From Marixanthomonas sp. SCSIO 43207 (lineage in GTDB: Bacteria; Bacteroidota; Bacteroidia; Flavobacteriales; Flavobacteriaceae): DNA of 64,000 nt. The stretch spans positions 2,242,001 to 2,306,000 of the forward strand of contig NZ_CP063203.1 in the NCBI RefSeq assembly GCF_019904255.1, in the 5' to 3' direction. Below are positions 1,403 through 48,335 of the stretch, in pieces (position 1 is the stretch's first letter; the number at the start of each line of letters is the position of its first letter). The notes below the pieces were generated by a model. That model worked only from the letters and a program-made list of their open reading frames with translations, searched no databases and was not told the DNA's origin. The position numbers were made by a program, and so were the translations under genes.

Positions 1403-2337
1403 TGCATATGCTTTTAGTACAAGAAAAAACTGCAACCGAAACTGTAGTAGCAGCTGTAGAAAACTACTATGAAGAATTTTTGATAGTTCTGCCTCGCATT
1501 GCATTGGCTATTTTTATAGTGGTTGCAGGTATCTTGATTGCTCAAGTAATTACCAATTTATTCAAAAGAAGGTTTTTAAACAAAGCAGAAGACCCTTTAA
1601 TGGCTCGTTTTCTCGCCCAAGCATTAAAAATTATATTAAGTTTAATTGCTATAATGGTTGCGCTAGATGTAGCCGGTTTAAGTGGTATTGCTACCGGAAT
1701 TTTAACTGCTGCCGGTGGTGCAGCAATTATTTTAGGTTTTGCTTTTCAAGACATTGGTAAAAACTTTTTAGCCGGGATTATTTTGGCTTTTAATAGACCT
1801 TTTAATATCAATGATACCATTATGGTCGATACGCATTTTGGGAAAGTAAAGGCACTTAACTTTAGGTATACCCACGTAAAAACTACAGACGGTCGTGATA
1901 TTTATATACCCAATAGTGACGTGCTTACCAAGCCTGTTGAAAACTACACCGCAGATGGTTTTTACCGTGTAGATTTTACGGTAGGAATAGGTTATGAAGA
2001 TGATATTGAAGCTGCCAAGACTATTATTCAGCAAATACTCGATAGCAATAAAGATATTGTACATAACGACACCCATGAAAACTTTGTAATAGAATCTGAA
2101 CTAGCCGCTAGTACAGTAAACCTCAAAGTATTATTTTGGGTACACACGATTGATTACAGAAAAGCTTCAAGAGTATTACGAGGTCAAGTAATTCAGCAAA
2201 TAAAAGTAGCACTTGATACAAACGGATTTAATCTTCCGGCAGATGTTAAAGAGATAAAACTTTACCGAAATGTAGAAGATATACCATTACGTTTACGTAA
2301 AGATCCTAGAGATTATCTTGAAGATAACAATAATTAA
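1402..2337 (+). CDS. MscS-family mechanosensitive ion channel
   Basis: The 311-residue protein has three hydrophobic segments (about residues 27-52, 68-90 and 93-120). They are followed by the MscS beta domain, with RPFNINDTIMVD and the IPNSDVLTKPVENYT signature, and an alpha/beta C-terminal part. The pore helix is the glycine/alanine-rich stretch TAAGGAAIILGFAFQDIGKN. MscS channels open under membrane tension and release solutes during osmotic downshock. The gene is coupled to the M16 gene by a one-base overlap. An alternative ATG two codons downstream cannot be excluded. A second MscS paralogue of similar size lies at 5328-6221 on the other strand. Confidence 0.9.
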   Translation: MHMLLVQEKTATETVVAAVENYYEEFLIVLPRIALAIFIVVAGILIAQVITNLFKRRFLNKAEDPLMARFLAQALKIILSLIAIMVALDVAGLSGIATGILTAAGGAAIILGFAFQDIGKNFLAGIILAFNRPFNINDTIMVDTHFGKVKALNFRYTHVKTTDGRDIYIPNSDVLTKPVENYTADGFYRVDFTVGIGYEDDIEAAKTIIQQILDSNKDIVHNDTHENFVIESELAASTVNLKVLFWVHTIDYRKASRVLRGQVIQQIKVALDTNGFNLPADVKEIKLYRNVEDIPLRLRKDPRDYLEDNNN

Positions 2338-40436: not shown

Positions 40437-41564
40437 ATGAAGCAATACAAAAAATATGATATCATTATAGTTGGAGGTGGTTTAGCCGGGCTCACAAGTG
40501 CTATCCATCTTTCAAATTACAGTGTATCTATATTGGTCCTCGAAAAAAAAGCATATCCGCACCATAAAGTTTGTGGCGAATATGTTTCAAATGAAATATT
40601 ACCTTATTTGCAGTCTATAGGAGTTAATCCCATCAAAAAGAATGTTGTTAAGATTTCAAACTTACTAATCACGACACCTACAAATAAAGAAATTACCACA
40701 ACATTACCATTAGGAGGCTTTGGTATAAGTCGTTATGCCTTTGATAACCTTCTCTATAACAAAGCTAAAGAAACAGTCGATTTTGAATTTAAAACGGTTA
40801 CCTCTATAGGTTTTACAAACGGAGTTTTTAAAGTTTCTACACAATGCGATACTACATATCATGCCACGTATGTGATTGGAAGTTTTGGTAAAAGGTCAAA
40901 CTTAGATAAAAAATTAAGTAGAAGCTTTATACAACATAAGTCACCTTGGTTAGCTGTAAAAGCTCATTATGATTATGATTTCCCTTCCAACCTTGTTGCC
41001 TTGCATTCTTTTAATGGAGGTTATTGCGGACTTTCAAAAACAGAAACCGGCACCGTCAATGCTTGTTACTTGGCAACCTATCATTCATTTAAAAAACACG
41101 ATGGTATCGATGCTTATCAAGAAAATAATATGAGTAAAAATAAAGCATTGCATACTTTTTTTTCAAAAGCAACTCCTTTGTTTGATGCTCCTTTAACAAT
41201 AAGCCAGGTATCATTTCAATCAAAAAAACCGGTAGAAAATCATATATTTATGATTGGCGATAGTGCAGGATTAATTCATCCTTTATGCGGAAACGGTATG
41301 GCGATGGCTATTCACAGTGCCAAATTGTTTTCAGAGTTGTTTCTGAAGCACGAAGGTAAAAACCCTAAAAACAGAAATCTTATAGAAAACGCGTACACCA
41401 AATCTTGGAATTCAACTTTCTCAAACAGAGTAAGAACAGGACGGTTGATTCAACGAGTTTTAATGAATCAAACGGCAACAAATATTGGTTTTTCTGCAGT
41501 GAAAACAATTCCGTATTTGCTTAAAACAATCATAAAAAAAACACACGGAAACCCCATTTCATAA
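40437..41564 (+). CDS. FAD-dependent oxidoreductase of the polyketide cluster (geranylgeranyl-reductase/monooxygenase-like)
   Basis: The protein has 375 residues. An N-terminal Rossmann motif YDIIIVGGGLAGLTSAIHLS binds FAD. It is followed by HHKVCGEYVSNEI and the second FAD contact FMIGDSAGLIHPLCGNGMAM near residue 280. This DSAG..PLxGxG pattern is shared by geranylgeranyl reductases and aromatic hydroxylases. In the cluster it is the best candidate for hydroxylation or oxidation of the aromatic product. It is the first gene of a seven-gene unit, and its stop overlaps the methyltransferase start by one base. Confidence 0.85.
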   Translation: MKQYKKYDIIIVGGGLAGLTSAIHLSNYSVSILVLEKKAYPHHKVCGEYVSNEILPYLQSIGVNPIKKNVVKISNLLITTPTNKEITTTLPLGGFGISRYAFDNLLYNKAKETVDFEFKTVTSIGFTNGVFKVSTQCDTTYHATYVIGSFGKRSNLDKKLSRSFIQHKSPWLAVKAHYDYDFPSNLVALHSFNGGYCGLSKTETGTVNACYLATYHSFKKHDGIDAYQENNMSKNKALHTFFSKATPLFDAPLTISQVSFQSKKPVENHIFMIGDSAGLIHPLCGNGMAMAIHSAKLFSELFLKHEGKNPKNRNLIENAYTKSWNSTFSNRVRTGRLIQRVLMNQTATNIGFSAVKTIPYLLKTIIKKTHGNPIS

Positions 41565-42292
41565 TGCCTAGCTTCTCCTCAAAATATCGCTCTACTGAAA
41601 TTGAAGTAATGGATTCTTTCCATTTACAAGGTAAAGATATGCAAGCTGTTTTAACAGACTTAAAAACGGTGAGTACATTACTTAGAGGTGCTTCTATTAC
41701 CTTAAATGGCATTAAAAAACTACTAACAGGCTATGATAATCAAAAGTGTATTACCATTTTAGACATTGGTTGCGGTGATGGTGAGATGCTTCGTCAATGT
41801 GCACGTTTCGGAAAAAAATATAGTTTTAATTTTAATCTTATAGGTCTAGACGCAAATAAGCATATCATTTCAGAAGCAAAAAAACGATGTAAACCTTATG
41901 AAAATATAACCTTTACACAGTTTGATGTGTTTTCAAGCCAATCACTTCCTCATGCTGAAATTATTGTGTGCAATCTTTTTTTACATCACTTTAAAAATGA
42001 AGAAATCACCTTAATACTTCAAAAACTAGTTGATAGTGCAAATATGGGTGTTGTTGTAAATGATTTAAACAGAAATAAATTGGCTTTTAGTCTTTTTAAA
42101 ATTTTTAGTCGTATTTTTCTAAAAACAGATATAGCCAAAAATGATGGTTTAGTTTCAGTAGCTAGAGGGTTTAAAAGACGTGAAATTGAACTTTTTTCTG
42201 AAAAAATATACAATCAAAAATCACACATTCGTTGGAAATGGGCGTTTCGCTATCAATGGATTTTAAAGAAACAATATGAGCATAACGATTAA
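41564..42292 (+). CDS. Class I SAM-dependent methyltransferase of the polyketide cluster
   Basis: The protein has 242 residues. The SAM-binding motif ITILDIGCGDGEMLRQCARF is near residue 63. LIGLDANKHIISEAKKR is motif II (acidic residue), and EIIVCNLFLHHFKNEEI is motif IV. Together these fit small-molecule O- or C-methyltransferases. The adjacent type III polyketide synthase gene overlaps by 17 bp, which makes methylation of the phenolic product the likely role (inference). Confidence 0.87.
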   Translation: MPSFSSKYRSTEIEVMDSFHLQGKDMQAVLTDLKTVSTLLRGASITLNGIKKLLTGYDNQKCITILDIGCGDGEMLRQCARFGKKYSFNFNLIGLDANKHIISEAKKRCKPYENITFTQFDVFSSQSLPHAEIIVCNLFLHHFKNEEITLILQKLVDSANMGVVVNDLNRNKLAFSLFKIFSRIFLKTDIAKNDGLVSVARGFKRREIELFSEKIYNQKSHIRWKWAFRYQWILKKQYEHND

Positions 42293-43328
42293 AACGGTTG
42301 CAACCCAGCTTCCTCCATATTCACAAGCAACAGAAGAGACAATTCCGTTGGTAAAAATGTGGTTACAAGGTCAAGAGTCCAGATTTCAGCGTAAAGTGAT
42401 TAAAATTTTTGAAGGTTCTGGCGTTGATAGACGCTATTCTATTATGAATCCTGAAGAAGTTTTTACCAATACCGATTTTGAATCAAAAAATGAAATTTAC
42501 ACAAGAGAGGTAAAAAAACTGGGGAAACAATCTTTACATAAAGCTCTGCAACAAGCCTCTTGGAACGCTACAGATATTGATTTTATAATTACCGTTAGTT
42601 GTACCGGTTTTATGATTCCTTCAGTTGATGCCTATTTAATAAACGAACTGCAATTGAGAGACGATGTAGTAAGACTTCCTGTTACCGAAATGGGGTGTGC
42701 AGCCGGAGTTTCAGGAATGATTTATGCAAAAAGTTTTTTAAAAGCCAATCCAGGAAAACGAGCTGCTGTGATTGCAATTGAAGCACCTACCGCCACATTT
42801 CAGTTAGAAGATTATTCTATGGCAAATATTGTGAGTGCTGCAATTTTTGGTGATGGCGCAGCGTGTGTTCTTTTATCCTCAAATCAACAAGACTCTGGGC
42901 CCAAACTACTTGATGAAGCTATGTATCACTTTTATGATGCTACACAATTAATGGGTTTTAAATTGGTAAATACCGGGCTGCAAATGATTTTAGATAAAGA
43001 TGTACCACAAACCATCGCCAATCATTTTCCTGATATTATACATCCATTTCTGAAGCAAAACAATAAAACAATTGATGATATAGATCATTTAATTTTTCAT
43101 CCCGGCGGAAAAAAAATAGTACAAACGGTTGAAAATCTTTTCGGAAGTTTAGGAAAAAACATAGATGATACAAAAGAAGTCCTTAAATTGTATGGTAATA
43201 TGAGTAGTGTTACGGTGCTTTTTGTGATGGAGCGTTTTTTAAAGAAAAATATCAAAACGGGAGATTTGGGATTGATGTTAAGTTTCGGACCCGGTTTTTC
43301 TGCACAACGAATTCTAATAGAATTTTAA
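42276..43328 (+). CDS. Type III polyketide synthase (chalcone/alkylresorcinol synthase family)
   Basis: The protein has 350 residues. The full Cys-His-Asn triad of the family is visible: TEMGCAAGVSGMIY (Cys141), LIFHPGGKKIVQ (His275) and KLYGNMSSVTVLF (Asn308). The C-terminal GPGFS loop is also present (LSFGPGFSAQRILIEF). These enzymes extend a CoA or acyl starter with malonyl-CoA and cyclise it to phloroglucinols, resorcinols or pyrones. The dedicated ketosynthase, dehydratase, reductase and ACP genes downstream suggest a fatty or acyl-ACP starter, as in phenolic-lipid synthesis. It overlaps the methyltransferase gene by 17 bp. Confidence 0.95.
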   Translation: MSITIKTVATQLPPYSQATEETIPLVKMWLQGQESRFQRKVIKIFEGSGVDRRYSIMNPEEVFTNTDFESKNEIYTREVKKLGKQSLHKALQQASWNATDIDFIITVSCTGFMIPSVDAYLINELQLRDDVVRLPVTEMGCAAGVSGMIYAKSFLKANPGKRAAVIAIEAPTATFQLEDYSMANIVSAAIFGDGAACVLLSSNQQDSGPKLLDEAMYHFYDATQLMGFKLVNTGLQMILDKDVPQTIANHFPDIIHPFLKQNNKTIDDIDHLIFHPGGKKIVQTVENLFGSLGKNIDDTKEVLKLYGNMSSVTVLFVMERFLKKNIKTGDLGLMLSFGPGFSAQRILIEF

Positions 43329-43329
43329 T

Positions 43330-44106
43330 ATGAAGAAAGAATTTACCAATAAATGGGCTTTAATTTTGGGTGGTAGCAGTGGTTTAGGTTTGGCTACAGC
43401 ACATAAATTGGCAGTCCATGGAATGAATATATGCATCGTACATCGCACCCGTAAAAACAGTATGCCAGATTTTTTAAAAGAAACAAACCTTCTTGAAGAG
43501 AATGGGGTAGAAGTGATACAATTTAACAAAGACGCCTTAAAAGAAGCTACTATAAAAGCAGTTTTAACATCACTGCCCAAACAAGGCTTAAAAGTATTGG
43601 TTCATAGTATAGCTAAAGGAAGTTTAAAAACGATGCAAGCGGCACAATTAAATATGCTTTCTATAACAGATATTGATTTAACATTGCATAGCATGGCAAC
43701 AAGCTGGTATGAGTGGACACAAGCTTTAATCTCCCAGTCTATATTTTCTGAAAATGCACGCAACATTGCTTTTACCAGCGAAGGAAATAATAAAGTTTGG
43801 CCAGGTTATGGAGCTGTTTCTGCTGCAAAAGCAACACTAGAAGCCTTAATGCGCCAAATGGCTGTAGAGCTTGCTACACAACAAATTACTACCAACTGTA
43901 TACAAGCCGGAACCACCTTAACACCTTCTTTTAAAATGATACCCGGAAGTGAAAAACTTTCAGAAAAAGCAAAAAAACGAAATCCATTTAATAGACTTAC
44001 CAAACCAAATGACGTTGCAAATGCCGTGTATCTATTATGTAAAGACGAAGCAAATTGGATTAACGGAACCATCCTAAAAGTAGATGGAGGAGAAAGTTTA
44101 CAGTAA
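43330..44106 (+). CDS. SDR enoyl-ACP reductase-like protein (FabI/FabL type)
   Basis: The protein has 258 residues. The cofactor loop ALILGGSSGLGLATAHKLAV begins at residue 10, and VLVHSIAKGSLK carries the FabL-like 'HSIAKGS' segment. The active-site pair is Tyr160 and Lys167 (WPGYGAVSAAKATLEA). A Tyr-x6-Lys spacing is the enoyl-reductase pattern, in contrast to Tyr-x3-Lys in ketoreductases. It would therefore reduce an enoyl thioester on the cluster's ACP. It lies one base after the polyketide synthase stop and overlaps the next start by one base. Confidence 0.85.
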   Translation: MKKEFTNKWALILGGSSGLGLATAHKLAVHGMNICIVHRTRKNSMPDFLKETNLLEENGVEVIQFNKDALKEATIKAVLTSLPKQGLKVLVHSIAKGSLKTMQAAQLNMLSITDIDLTLHSMATSWYEWTQALISQSIFSENARNIAFTSEGNNKVWPGYGAVSAAKATLEALMRQMAVELATQQITTNCIQAGTTLTPSFKMIPGSEKLSEKAKKRNPFNRLTKPNDVANAVYLLCKDEANWINGTILKVDGGESLQ

Positions 44107-44570
44107 TGGAAAATACATTTAAAACCATTCTTGATGCCTTACCCTACAAAGACCCTTTTTTGTTTGTAAATGAAATAGTGTCTATATCTGAAGAACGAGT
44201 TGAAGGTATCTACATGTTTAGTCCAGAGGCGTATTTTTATGAAGGCCATTTTAAAGAAATAGCTGTAACACCAGGTGTGATTCTTACCGAATGTATGGCA
44301 CAAATAGGGGTGGTGTGTTTAGGAATATATTTACTATCAAAAGAAGATTCTCATTTTAACACAGCGGGATTGCAAGTTGCAATGAGCAATACAAATATTG
44401 ATTTTTTAAAACCCGTTTATCCGGGTGAGACGGTAACAGTTATTTCTGAAAAGAAATATTTTCGGTTTAATAAACTTAAATGTGCTGTCAAAATGCTGAA
44501 TAGTAAAGAGGAAGTAATTTGCAAAGGAACAATTAGCGGAATGATAAAGTTTTCAGAAGATGAGAAATAG
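44106..44570 (+). CDS. Hotdog-fold 3-hydroxyacyl-ACP dehydratase (FabZ-like)
   Basis: The protein has 154 residues. LPYKDPFLFVNEIVSI is the FabZ N-terminal block (LPHRxPFLLVDxI). YEGHFKEIAVTPGVILTECMAQ carries the catalytic His48 and Glu62 at the FabZ spacing. It would dehydrate a 3-hydroxyacyl-ACP made in this cluster, before the enoyl-reductase-like enzyme. The gene overlaps the SDR gene by one base and the ketosynthase gene by 11 bp. Confidence 0.9.
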   Translation: MENTFKTILDALPYKDPFLFVNEIVSISEERVEGIYMFSPEAYFYEGHFKEIAVTPGVILTECMAQIGVVCLGIYLLSKEDSHFNTAGLQVAMSNTNIDFLKPVYPGETVTVISEKKYFRFNKLKCAVKMLNSKEEVICKGTISGMIKFSEDEK

Positions 44571-45834
44571 GGTAGTTATAACCGGTCTTGGGGTGGTAGC
44601 TCCTAATGGAGTAGGTGTTCCAGAGTTTTTAAAAGCTATCAAAGCCGGCACTTCAGGAATCACGTTTCATCAAGAATTAAAAGATGCAAACTTTTCTTGT
44701 CAAATAGGTGGAATTCCTACAATTTCTGAAGAAAAAATCAATCAATATTTTACTCAACTTCAACTTAAAAATTTTAATAGTAATAATATACTTTATGGTG
44801 TCATTGCCGGGATGGATGCTTTGAAAGATGCCAATATTGAACCCGCTGCAAAAGATGCAGAGCCACTCTGGGATGTAGGAGTCATATTTGGGTCTGGAAA
44901 TAGTTCTGCCGAGAAATTTAGAGAATCATTTTATAAAATTGACGCTAAAAATGTACGCCGCTTAGGAAGTAACACTGTAAGTCAAACAATGGCAAGTAGT
45001 GTAAGTGCCTACTTGGGAGGTAAGATTGGTGCAGGAAATCAGGTTACGAGTAATGCTTCTGCCTGTGCAACAGGTACCGAAGCCATTTTAATGGGCTATG
45101 AGCAAATTGCCTCTGGAAGAGCAACTAAAATGCTCTGTGGAAGTAGCAACGATGGCGGACCCTATGTTTGGGGAGGTTTTGATGCGATGCGTATTTTACC
45201 GTATCAATTTAACCAAAACCCTACAGCCGCATCAAAGCCAATGAGTGCAGATGCAACTGGTTTTGTTCCTGGTTGTGGTGCCGGAGCATTAATGCTAGAA
45301 TCACTAGAAAGTGCAGAAAAAAGAGGTGCGCAAATTTATGCAGAAGTGTTAGGCGGTGCAGTAAACAGTGGAGGGCAACGCGGTGTAGGGAGTATGACGG
45401 CTCCTAATAGTACAGCGGTTAAAAAATGCATTGTTGCTGCGATACATTCGGCGGGGATTAATGCATCTGAAATTGATTACATAAACGGTCATTTAACCGC
45501 AACCACAAAAGATGCAGTCGAAGTTGAAAACTGGTCAAAAGCTTTAAACCGAAAAGGAAGCGACTTTCCTTACATTAATTCACTCAAGGGGATGACAGGA
45601 CATTGCTTGGCGGCTAGCGGTAGTATTGAAGCTGTATCAACTATTTTACAAATGAATAAACATTTTTTATTTTCAAATAGTAACTGTGAAAACATTCATC
45701 CTGAAATTGAAAAACTAGTCGCTAGTGAAAAGGTTTTACGTAAGATTAAAAATATTGAAATAAAAACAGCTATTAAAGCTAGTTTTGGTTTTGGAGATGT
45801 AAATTCCTGTGTTATCTTTAGAAGAAAAAATTGA
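44560..45834 (+). CDS. Beta-ketoacyl-ACP synthase (FabF-like) of the polyketide cluster
   Basis: The protein has 424 residues. The catalytic Cys169 is in TSNASACATGTEAI, His311 in INGHLTATTKD and His348 in KGMTGHCLAASGSIEA: the Cys-His-His triad of KAS I/II. Position 310 is Gly where FabF has Ala (NAHGTST becomes NGHLTAT), so the active site is not housekeeping-like. It would elongate the ACP-bound chain. There is no partner chain-length-factor gene. It overlaps both neighbours. Confidence 0.93.
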   Translation: MRNRVVITGLGVVAPNGVGVPEFLKAIKAGTSGITFHQELKDANFSCQIGGIPTISEEKINQYFTQLQLKNFNSNNILYGVIAGMDALKDANIEPAAKDAEPLWDVGVIFGSGNSSAEKFRESFYKIDAKNVRRLGSNTVSQTMASSVSAYLGGKIGAGNQVTSNASACATGTEAILMGYEQIASGRATKMLCGSSNDGGPYVWGGFDAMRILPYQFNQNPTAASKPMSADATGFVPGCGAGALMLESLESAEKRGAQIYAEVLGGAVNSGGQRGVGSMTAPNSTAVKKCIVAAIHSAGINASEIDYINGHLTATTKDAVEVENWSKALNRKGSDFPYINSLKGMTGHCLAASGSIEAVSTILQMNKHFLFSNSNCENIHPEIEKLVASEKVLRKIKNIEIKTAIKASFGFGDVNSCVIFRRKN

Positions 45835-45836
45835 TA

Positions 45837-46085
45837 ATGACCAATGAACAAATTTATGGGAAATTACTTCCTATTATAAAAATATATTTACCTGAAGACG
45901 TTTCAGAAAATGAGATTACTCCAGATAAAGATTTAACCGGTGAATTGAATATTAACTCTGCTCACTTAGTTGATGTGGTACTAGATGTAGAAGATGAGTT
46001 TGATGTAGCTTTTGAAAATACCGATATGGAAAATCTACGCACCATAAACGATGCGATTGCAATAATTAAAGAAAAGCTAAAATAA
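45837..46085 (+). CDS. Acyl carrier protein of the polyketide cluster
   Basis: The ATG at 45837 (82 residues) is preferred to a TTG at 45831. The helix II region reads LTGELNINSAHLVDVVLDVE, where the attachment serine lies in NSAH in place of the usual DSL. The protein is acidic and helical, with a standard ACP length. The Asp-to-Asn and Leu-to-Ala changes set it apart from housekeeping ACP and suggest a cluster-specific partner set. It follows the ketosynthase stop by 2 bp and ends the operon. Confidence 0.9.
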   Translation: MTNEQIYGKLLPIIKIYLPEDVSENEITPDKDLTGELNINSAHLVDVVLDVEDEFDVAFENTDMENLRTINDAIAIIKEKLK

Positions 46086-46086
46086 A

Positions 46087-46119
46087 AAAGCTGAAATTAA
46101 TACTTATAATTTCAGCTTT
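46087..46119 (-). terminator. Rho-independent terminator; U-tract faces the minus-strand minigenes
   Basis: A perfect 13-bp stem (AAAGCTGAAATTA/TAATTTCAGCTTT) has a 7-nt loop. In the minus direction it is followed by UUUUUUAUUUU; in the plus direction only by a short, interrupted tract. It thus ends the minus-strand small-gene cluster best, 23 bp after the stop of the last minigene, while also lying directly behind the ACP gene. Confidence 0.82.
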
Positions 46120-46142
46120 ATTGTTGTGTCATCAACCGTTTT

Positions 46143-46277
46143 TTAATACGCGTAGCGGTTGGTTTCTTCAAAATATGGATCTTCATAGGTATGTGTGTTT
46201 TCTCTAAAAGGGAAGAAGGAGTGCTGTTTTCTGGCAGCACTTATCAGCCTTTTTCGTACGTTTCTTTGAATTTTCAT
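46143..46277 (-). CDS. Very small protein (44 residues), last gene of the minigene cluster
   Basis: I found this reading frame by translating the minus strand of the stretch 46086-46775, which has no long gene. The 44-residue product has a basic N-terminal half (KIQRNVRKRLISAARKQH) and an acidic, tyrosine-rich C-terminal half (YEDPYFEETNRYAY). There is no signal peptide, membrane helix or Cys. The 17 nt at 46284-46300 just upstream of its ATG are identical to those ahead of the second minigene. It is 38 bp behind that gene and 23 bp before a terminator that faces it. The pattern supports translation, but I recognise no family. Confidence 0.6.
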   Translation of the reverse strand: MKIQRNVRKRLISAARKQHSFFPFRENTHTYEDPYFEETNRYAY

Positions 46278-46283
46278 GATAGA

Positions 46284-46300
46284 TTGTTTTTTAATTGATT
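46284..46300 (-). promoter_or_regulatory. 17-nt repeated leader (copy 1) before the 44-residue minigene
   Basis: The segment is AATCAATTAAAAAACAA on the minus strand and ends 6 nt before the ATG at 46277. An identical copy lies at 46408-46424, 5 nt before the ATG of the next minigene. The A-rich core resembles the translation leaders of this phylum. Confidence 0.55.
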
Positions 46301-46315
46301 GATAATGACCTCAGC

Positions 46316-46402
46316 TTATCGGTATCTTCTTTTTTGATTCCAGGTATAGCTATTTGAGTTTTGTAAGCGTTCTGTAATTTGGTTACTGTTTAGCGTTCTC
46401 AT
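46316..46402 (-). CDS. 28-residue minigene, copy B of a tandem pair
   Basis: The product starts MRTLNSNQITERLQNSNSYT and ends WNQKRRYR. It is rich in Asn/Gln, has one Trp and a basic tail, and lacks Cys, signal peptide or membrane helix. It is a tandem copy of the gene at 46442-46528. Of 28 sense codons 14 differ between the copies, each by one base; 12 differences are silent, and only Asn5/Asp and Glu11/Gln change the protein. Such a bias is what selection on a translated peptide leaves. The function is unknown. Confidence 0.72.
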   Translation of the reverse strand: MRTLNSNQITERLQNSNSYTWNQKRRYR

Positions 46403-46407
46403 AATTG

Positions 46408-46424
46408 TTGTTTTTTAATTGATT
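46408..46424 (-). promoter_or_regulatory. 17-nt repeated leader (copy 2) before minigene B
   Basis: This is identical over 17 nt to 46284-46300 and has nearly the same spacing to the start codon (5 nt, compared with 6). Minigene C has a shorter related leader (TTAAAAAACA, 7 nt before its ATG). Confidence 0.55.
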
Positions 46425-46441
46425 AATTTAATTTTTGACTT

Positions 46442-46528
46442 TTAGCGGTATCTTCTTTTTTGATTCCAAGTGTAACTGTTTGAATTTTGTAAACGTTGTG
46501 TGATTTGATTGCTGTCTAAAGTTCTCAT
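46442..46528 (-). CDS. 28-residue minigene, copy C of a tandem pair
   Basis: The product is MRTLDSNQITQRLQNSNSYT followed by WNQKRRYR. It is the most upstream gene of the minus-strand cluster, with 39 bp between its stop and the start of copy B. The stop codon falls at the same place in both copies and the reading frame has no indel. About 250 bp separate its ATG from the divergent helicase gene. No exact TAnnTTTG box is visible upstream on the minus strand, so its promoter is not identified. The function is unknown. Confidence 0.72.
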   Translation of the reverse strand: MRTLDSNQITQRLQNSNSYTWNQKRRYR

Positions 46529-46717
46529 AATAAATGTTTTTTAAAGGTTTCTATTAAATAGACGACATACTATTCGTTTTGTTACAGTACTATGCATTAC
46601 AAAGTAGTAATTTAACATACTTTTAACTTTTCAGGTGTACAGGAGTCATTATATACTTGTTTAGTAGTTTTTCAGAAAATTGAATAAAATCAATTCAAAA
46701 TTATTTGATAAAAATTC

Positions 46718-46747
46718 TTTGAAAACGCTTAAAAGGCTTTATTTTTG
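46718..46747 (+). promoter_or_regulatory. Promoter: TTTG-N18-TATTTTTG
   Basis: The -33 TTTG (46718) and -7 TATTTTTG (46740) are both exact and are 18 bp apart. The helicase ATG is 29 bp downstream of the -7 box, preceded by AGAAAGGAT, one of the few purine-rich sites in the window that resembles a Shine-Dalgarno sequence. Confidence 0.7.
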
Positions 46748-46775
46748 CAACCTTATTTTTCAGAAAGGATTATAA

Positions 46776-48335
46776 ATGGCTACTACGAGTAACAACACAA
46801 TATTAAAAGAAAAAAAGACTGATAAAGACCTTTATAACTACCAAAGGGGAGCTATAAACAAGATTTTTAAAAGTTTTGAAGAAGCTCCAGAGGATCACCA
46901 TTTATTATATCAATTACCAACCGGTGGTGGTAAAACCGTAATTTTTTCTGAAATAGTACGGGAATACCTTCGTACCCGAAAGAAAAAAGTTTTAGTATTA
47001 ACACACCGTATTGAATTGTGTAAACAAACTTCGGCTATGTTGACAGAGTTTGGTGTTGTTAATAAAGTAATTAACAGTACAGCAAATCTTGATGATCAAG
47101 ACCAATATAGCTGTTTTGTAGCTATGGTAGAGACCTTAAACAATAGACTTAGGGATAATATGTTGGATATCTCAGATATTGGTTTGGTAATTATTGATGA
47201 GGCTCACTACAACTCGTTTACAAAACTCTTTAAATATTTTGACAAATCCTTTTTACTTGGTGTAACAGCAACGCCTTTAAGTTCAAATGTTGAGCTTCCT
47301 ATGAAGGATAATTATGACGAATTAATCGTTGGTGAAAGTATTGCATCATTGATTGAAAATGAGTTTTTGGCAAAAGCAATAAATTATTCATACAATGTAG
47401 GTCTTACTTCGCTTGTTGTAGGATCAAATGGAGATTATACCGTTCAATCTTCAGATGATTTATATACGGGAACCGATATGTTAAGCCGCTTACTTCAAGC
47501 CTATGAAGAAAGAAGCAAAGGTAAAAAAACCCTAATCTTTAATAACGGAATTAACACCTCTCTTTATGTTTATGATACCTTTAAAAGAGCAGGGTATCCT
47601 ATTATGCACCTTGACAACACAGCTTCAAAAAAGGAGCGTAAAATGATATTAAAATGGTTCAAAGAAACGCCAGATGCTATTTTAACTTCAGTAAGTATCT
47701 TAACAACCGGATTTGATGAACCTTCTGTAGAGACCATAATCTTGAACCGTGCTACACGATCACTTACATTATACTATCAAATGATAGGGCGTGGCTCTCG
47801 AATCACAAACAATAAATCTACTTTTAACGTAATAGATTTAGGAAATAACTTTTATCGTTTTGGTGCTTGGGGAGAAGATCTAGATTGGCAACGTATATTT
47901 AAATCACCTAAATACTTTTTAGATAACCTAATAGATGACGAAGAACTAGAAAGTAACTTTAGGTATGAAATGCCTGATGAGTTACGTGAAATGTTCTCCA
48001 AAACTGAAGATGTATATTTTAATGTAAAAACAGCCTATACAGAATCTGTAAAAAATGGAGAATCAACCAAGGTAATTCTAGAACGCTCAATTGAACATCA
48101 TGCAAGAATGTGTATAGAAAATAGCGAAGATGTTTTTGATGCCCTTATACTTGCTAAAGAATTAGGCGATGATATTGACCATCGTATTGAGCACTACACT
48201 AAGTGTATAAGCAAAAGCACACACAACTTTGTGAGTTGGCTTAAAAAAGATTATAGAGTAAAACTACGCTCTTATTTGAGAGAAAATTTTGATACTATTT
48301 TTGAAGAAATCAACGGTTATCCTCCAGAAGAATAG
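46776..48335 (+). CDS. DEAD/DEAH-box superfamily II helicase (RadD-like)
   Basis: The protein has 519 residues. YNYQRGAINKIFKSF is the Q-like motif, YQLPTGGGKTVIFSEI Walker A near residue 45, VIIDEAHYNSFTKLF the DEAH motif, GVTATPLSS motif III-like, and LYYQMIGRGSRI motif VI. The C-terminal 170 residues have no domain I recognise and end in a helical, charged segment. The layout resembles E. coli RadD, which acts in recombination repair. Its consensus promoter and purine-rich leader suggest steady expression. It diverges from the minigene cluster. Confidence 0.88.
   Translation: MATTSNNTILKEKKTDKDLYNYQRGAINKIFKSFEEAPEDHHLLYQLPTGGGKTVIFSEIVREYLRTRKKKVLVLTHRIELCKQTSAMLTEFGVVNKVINSTANLDDQDQYSCFVAMVETLNNRLRDNMLDISDIGLVIIDEAHYNSFTKLFKYFDKSFLLGVTATPLSSNVELPMKDNYDELIVGESIASLIENEFLAKAINYSYNVGLTSLVVGSNGDYTVQSSDDLYTGTDMLSRLLQAYEERSKGKKTLIFNNGINTSLYVYDTFKRAGYPIMHLDNTASKKERKMILKWFKETPDAILTSVSILTTGFDEPSVETIILNRATRSLTLYYQMIGRGSRITNNKSTFNVIDLGNNFYRFGAWGEDLDWQRIFKSPKYFLDNLIDDEELESNFRYEMPDELREMFSKTEDVYFNVKTAYTESVKNGESTKVILERSIEHHARMCIENSEDVFDALILAKELGDDIDHRIEHYTKCISKSTHNFVSWLKKDYRVKLRSYLRENFDTIFEEINGYPPEE

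Follow-up and report, generated by a model that had tools for sequence, protein, structure and literature searches.

What is encoded where a bacterial genome seems to have no gene of ordinary size? In the 64,000-nt stretch of Marixanthomonas sp. SCSIO 43207 DNA analysed here, which we refer to as the window (NZ_CP063203.1, assembly GCF_019904255.1, forward-strand positions 2,242,001-2,306,000), such a region holds three very small minus-strand reading frames of 28, 28 and 44 codons. Are they genes, what switches them on and what might such small peptides do?

The locus and its coding character

The first-pass annotation had described a long stretch free of normal genes, and indeed every ORF inside 46086-46775 is shorter than 60 aa. 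The three mini-genes, two copies of a peptide that we call A followed by a peptide B, were found just where it had placed them (Table 1), separated by gaps of 39 and 38 bp, and the 13-bp hairpin with its T-tract was likewise recovered on the minus strand behind the last gene. Terminator-like sites number three in 45800-47000, compared with a shuffle mean of 0.5. Another claim stood in part: the identical 17-nt leader aatcaattaaaaaacaa, said to be shared by the second A copy and B, does exist, but rather than standing directly at the ATGs it stops 5 and 6 nt upstream of them. The promoter/operator block (Table 1) and the family-wide conservation described below are additions to the first-pass annotation. 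The operon appears self-contained, with a promoter of its own and, in the case of the window, a terminator as well. It is adjoined by a plus-strand gene run (40437-46085) that we take to resemble a polyketide/aryl-lipid pathway, its members presumably being an oxidoreductase, a methyltransferase, a type III PKS-like protein, an SDR, a dehydratase, a ketosynthase and an acyl carrier protein.

Table 1. Positions in the window of the peptide operon and its putative control elements
Feature	Position	Strand	Description
Promoter/operator block	46558-46627		whole block of the window operon
GTTAAA repeats	46611-46627 (46622-46627 + 46611-46616)	-	two direct repeats, 11 bp apart; conserved in peptide promoters
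Operator palindrome	46587-46606	-	TACTTTG-N5-CATAGTAC; resembles that of the PadR-PspC operon
ECF-type -35	46580-46586	-	TGTAACA
ECF-type -10	46558-46564	-	CGTCTAT, 16 nt after TGTAAC
Peptide A, copy 1	46442-46528	-	28 aa, MRTLDSNQITQRLQNSNSYTWNQKRRYR
Peptide A, copy 2	46316-46402	-	28 aa, MRTLNSNQITERLQNSNSYTWNQKRRYR
Peptide B	46143-46277	-	44 aa, MKIQRNVRKRLISAARKQHSFFPFRENTHTYEDPYFEETNRYAY; 43-45 aa counterparts after A in other genera
Intrinsic-terminator-like hairpin	46087-46119	-	13 bp + T-tract

The A twins differ, as first counted, by 14 changes, of which 12 are silent and two are replacements (pS 0.79, pN 0.029); when these base changes were placed at random 20,000 times, two or fewer replaced codons arose in only about 1 of 10,000 cases. 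The 44-mer was recovered from six of the seven genomes of the genus, our own among them (the remaining one is 55% complete); in their alignment, third positions vary in 25 of 44 columns and first and second positions in 4 of 88, two of each. Pairwise comparison of all 129 distinct A copies gave a median pN/pS of 0.41. Judged by these substitution patterns, the three ORFs are protein-coding genes under purifying selection, and we infer that they are transcribed and translated.

The same data bear on the idea that the locus acts through an RNA, either one with a dual function or a pure regulator, the ORFs being incidental. A short stand-alone unit with a terminator would suit such an RNA, and the available text of PMC9723704 lists a regulatory RNA of Flavobacterium psychrophilum, Rfp11, behind a sigma-ECF (SM6) promoter. 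Here, however, silent sites diverge while the protein is kept, folding is no better than that of shuffled sequences (z -0.76) and the window yielded 0 Rfam matches at gathering scores. We consider a role as RNA very improbable.

Distribution and properties of the peptides

Peptide A has the motif MRTL[ND]xNQ[IL][TS]...WNxKRR[YF]R. Of 397 genomes from the family of the window, which we infer to be Flavobacteriaceae, 119 carry it (E≤0.01), as do 81 of the 237 genera sampled; among near-complete, low-contamination genomes of the family the count is 109 of 330. Profile searches at class and phylum level were positive in at least 3 of 395 and at least 4 of 395 genomes, respectively (own included), all belonging to that same family, with at most 21 candidates scored per genome and misses possible. 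Together with the purifying selection on the 44-mer and the conserved upstream promoter, these homologues sustain the earlier view of a conserved peptide operon. The notion that the ORFs arose by chance, which their small size might invite, is ruled out by the homologues and by the selection tests, leaving it a negligible probability.

The 61 loci collected (the window and 60 that were fetched) contain 107 A copies. Their length is exactly 28 residues in 94 cases and 29-35 residues in 12; the remaining one is a 21-residue stretch without a normal start region. There are two copies in 29 loci, one in 24, three in seven and four in one. In an alignment of 37 rows, M1, L4, W21, N22, R25 and R26 are invariant. 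As a family, the predicted A peptides hardly vary in length, and tandem copies are frequent. Broken frames, which the first-pass annotation had regarded as the mark of a non-coding element, are represented by one degenerate A-like copy, frameshifted and interrupted by an in-frame stop, in a Winogradskyella MAG (L043, ~1570-1653, minus strand). In a scan that covered named organisms poorly, this MAG was the only named record to show a remnant of A.

Behind A, many loci have a single ORF of 43-45 residues (B), which in many genera ends in W-x-G-x-K-R-Y-A-H. The relatives of the window carry a divergent form, QRNVRKRL...NRYAY, and the window's own B is without the W-x-G-x-K-R-Y-A-H end. In four loci (L060, L101, L105 and L106), an ORF of 22-25 residues after A, for example MKTLSKIIDTSHTVNDDLDTAK, replaces the 44-mer.

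All five peptides examined are hydrophilic and basic (pI 9.9-11.5), with GRAVY values of -1.85 for A and -1.29 for B, and no export signal was seen by eye. AlphaFold modelled B with low confidence (pLDDT 65.7; about 80 in an N-terminal helix, the rest uncertain), and no convincing match to a solved structure was found (best E 0.13). The peptides had no NCBIfam match and no Pfam match above cut-off, B reaching DUF2860 below it (E 0.011). With a B-type peptide from another genus and the consensus of A as queries, in place of the window sequences, neither PADLOC nor PHROGs gave a match; in PHROGs, peptide D (described below) had two weak ones (E 0.07-0.08). The sequence letters of the peptides were absent from the open-licence PMC papers searched.

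The neighbours of the peptide loci are chromosomal genes that differ between lineages. What we take to be a helicase-like gene is present in the DNA fetched for 34 of the 61 loci and a presumed ExbD-like gene in that for 28, while in four loci the operon stands beside genes presumably resembling those for ribosomal protein S1 and cytidylate kinase. No gene cluster is found near all 61 loci, the widest being present in 39.

These properties weigh on two further readings. Tandem tiny ORFs might encode type I toxin peptides or stalling leader peptides; yet the hydrophilicity of A and B is not that of short hydrophobic membrane peptides, a terminator-like hairpin follows the operon and the neighbours vary by lineage, so that we find this reading barely credible. 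Alternatively, stress might control tandem genes for antimicrobial peptides of the leaderless bacteriocin type. Bacteriocins of this type can consist of several peptides, and short, tandem, cationic, Trp-containing peptides with no evident signal sequence would fit among them. Against this, no gene cluster is common to all the loci, no exporter was recognised by eye among the neighbours of 20 representatives (a limited test), and A is very hydrophilic and conserved rather than diversified; nor was A found in phage or plasmid records (tblastn with the consensus of A as query) or in viral contigs (DNA pattern scan). An antimicrobial role seems to us improbable.

One composite promoter and its peptide families

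What, then, switches the operon on? The consensus of 108 distinct blocks with a 16-nt spacer comprises two GTTAAA repeats, the palindrome TACTWTG-N5-CATAGTA and the boxes TGTAACA...CGTCTAT. The repeats resemble an OmpR/PhoB-type response-regulator box. The core of the block, GTACTGTAAC, starts 59-121 nt upstream of the first A codon in 54 of the 61 peptide loci. Seven loci are without the block as scored: L081 and L109 keep ECF-like boxes and lack the palindrome, whereas L054, L066, L098, L100 and L108 have A-family peptides with neither the block nor ECF-like boxes. Alternative wiring is possible in these loci. L054 and L066, and likewise L098 and L100, form pairs that each occupy a shared, different gene neighbourhood.

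Scanning 249 genomes for GTACTGTAAC-N14-18-CGTCT, independently of the peptides, returned 117 sites in 98 genomes, compared with 10 matches for the reversed pattern. The spacer is 16 in 112 of these sites and differs in five; among CGTCTA-ended occurrences in the fetched loci, where spacers of 10-22 were allowed and overlapping loci counted repeatedly, it is 16 in 132 of 132. By presence lists compiled by hand, 66 genomes have both A and the pattern, 15 A only, 32 the pattern only and 136 neither (p 1.4e-21).

TGTAAC-like -35 and CGTC-like -10 boxes at near-fixed spacing, as seen in front of the peptide genes, are the pattern expected of a sigma-ECF-dependent operon, and a CGT-box -10 motif is attributed to sigma-ECF in F. 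psychrophilum, according to the available text of PMC9723704. Our own genome has 19 sigma-region-4 matches. In one of these loci, L193, an ECF gene is followed by a possible anti-sigma gene and preceded, ~70 nt before its start, by TGTAACA-N16-CGTC (counted from TGTAAC), a site without TAT after CGTC, without repeats and without palindrome. L191 has TGTAAC-N17-CGTC boxes, and the scan detected no such box at the remaining sigma loci of the genome. The L193 gene appears to be the best candidate for the ECF sigma.

Searching the own genome for TGTAAC-N14-18-CGTCTA gave five sites, compared with two control matches: one at the peptide operon, one inside a long open frame, one (L111) before rhodanese-like genes, one (L115) before a gene of unknown function and one at L112. 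The last lies ~290-300 nt upstream of a receptor-like gene, whose product carries CarbopepD_reg_2 and Plug and whose relative in another genus is found at L148, likewise ~300 nt downstream of an ECF-type site.

Small cationic peptides of four classes (A, B, C and D) follow 56 of 63 distinct promoter-fetched sites and none of 692 random positions in the same loci, the classes having been called by expressions written after the sequences were viewed and the 63 sites being a non-random part of the 117 (30 loci were taken automatically and 40 chosen by hand, mostly away from peptide A). C has 36-37 residues (PTES...SKRVxW...RNY) and occurs singly or in up to four copies, and D is a GFGW peptide; similar aromatic/basic ends recur in these otherwise different peptides. 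When peptide-fetched loci are included, the 108 blocks precede A-like peptides in 46 cases, A and B in 29, C in 13, C and D in 12, B and C in one and other products in seven. At the level of predicted genes, other genera have this composite promoter in front of at least two more families of cationic peptides, C and D. The seven other products are two variant peptides (L146 and L175), four exported-looking proteins and one outer-membrane protein (L148). The exported-looking proteins, encoded in L134 (twice, at neighbouring sites), L154 and L177, have acidic repeats such as LPKNFNALKGKxDLDWSTIELIEIEE.

A proposed PadR-PspC link and known systems

The own genome has one PadR match, and it belongs to an operon encoding this regulator together with a PspC-LiaF-ToastRack membrane partner, whose HAAS match is below cut-off (23.4 vs 27 bits). 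GTTAA repeats and a palindrome similar to those of the peptide operon occur in the PadR-PspC promoters of 29 of 29 loci checked, namely our own and those of 28 other genomes picked for having peptides or the promoter, ten PadR-paralogue loci that did not match the signature (L208-L215, L236 and L237) having been set aside before the count. A degenerate palindrome had 81 distinct hits in ~1.55 Mb of fetched DNA (overlaps counted), most of it fetched on account of the two operon types: by their flanking boxes, 54 were peptide-type, 26 PadR-type, and the one other proved to be the peptide promoter of L082 in reverse orientation. A search of the own genome that allowed one mismatch found the palindrome at the peptide operon only, because the padR operator, TACTATG-N5-CATAATA, differs from the search pattern at two positions; the identity of both operators is therefore approximate, and it is at this approximate level that the peptide operon shares its operator with the padR operon, as a member of a HAAS-PadR/PspC regulon should. 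In the padR operon, repeats and palindrome are followed by TATATTTG, which fits TAnnTTTG, the housekeeping promoter box of flavobacteria according to the available text of PMC9723704. In the peptide operon the palindrome abuts the -35, a position equally compatible with an activator and with a repressor. HAAS-PadR and PspC have been proposed as a membrane-stress system or switch (available text of PMC11237479); the accessible part of a Zobellia PadR paper (PMC5613140) deals with another PadR context.

The switch of the peptides also precedes a known kind of membrane-stress regulator, and the system therefore looks like an overlooked mini-protein stress response. We regard it as rather probable that Flavobacteriaceae have an envelope-stress programme run by ECF/PadR-PspC, that the cationic peptides are among its main products and that the mini-genes of the window form a stand-alone stress operon. 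In such a programme, an ECF sigma factor would read TGTAACA/CGTCTAT, the single PadR would bind the palindrome and an OmpR/PhoB-type response regulator would bind the GTTAAA repeats. On sensing membrane stress, the PspC protein would alter PadR binding, and the tandem copies would allow the peptides to be made in bulk. At the weakest step, a C-terminal aromatic/basic tail (W-N-x-K-R-R-Y/F-R in A, W-x-G-x-K-R-Y-A-H in many B) would let the soluble cationic peptides bind an anionic partner, which might be RNA/ribosome or the stressed membrane on its inner side. The simplest reading of how the peptides act would be that they bind nucleic acid or an anionic surface.

The main rival to such binding is that the peptides feed back on their regulators: by binding PadR, the PspC protein or a sigma/anti-sigma pair, they would set the gain of the stress circuit and would not act on a stressed target. 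The similarity of their operator to that of the padR operon speaks for this, small size and tandem copies would suit a titrating peptide, and the similar ends of otherwise different peptides would suit a docking motif. However, A, C and D differ, yet hosts of either kind retain PadR-PspC (28 genomes checked). Feedback is in our view unlikely, although it deserves to be kept in mind.

Returning to peptides as stress effectors, the broader proposal is a dedicated envelope-stress programme in which cationic peptides of 28-45 residues, in sets that are often tandem, would take the place of chaperones or small RNAs as the main product: families A-D would be captured by one ECF/PadR/response-regulator promoter, several with a similar aromatic/basic tail, and would make up a new class of stress effector. 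We see the chances of this proposal as evenly balanced. It would mean that a layer of peptide genes of fewer than 50 codons, with no match in the protein families searched, extends across a large bacterial family and is linked to one particular pair of regulators, PadR with its PspC partner. The peptides are candidate outputs for the PadR/PspC stress system, whose logic is directly testable, and the promoter pattern is a means of finding further members.

How does this compare with known systems? In the sigma-E/Cpx network of E. coli, an envelope-stress sigma factor and a response regulator drive very small gene products. The system described here would work alike, and an outer-membrane gene shares the promoter class of the peptide operon; the products are conserved peptides here and base-pairing RNAs there. 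Leaderless bacteriocins such as aureocin A70 are also short tandem peptides without a leader, whereas the peptides here are hydrophilic and conserved family-wide, with no exporter recognised. For sigma-ECF (SM6) of F. psychrophilum, the available text of PMC9723704 gives type IX secretion, Band-7 proteins, Rfp11 and others as targets and names no tandem peptides; 'PadR' is absent from its main text. Finally, the HAAS-PadR-like wHTH/PspC systems (PMC11237479) are matched by our own genome's PadR and PspC/LiaF-TM/ToastRack module, whose promoter has repeats and a palindrome like those of the peptide operon. Sensors and regulators are described in the available text of that paper, which names no tandem peptide regulon; here, in contrast, the peptides are encoded at a separate locus, behind an ECF-type promoter.
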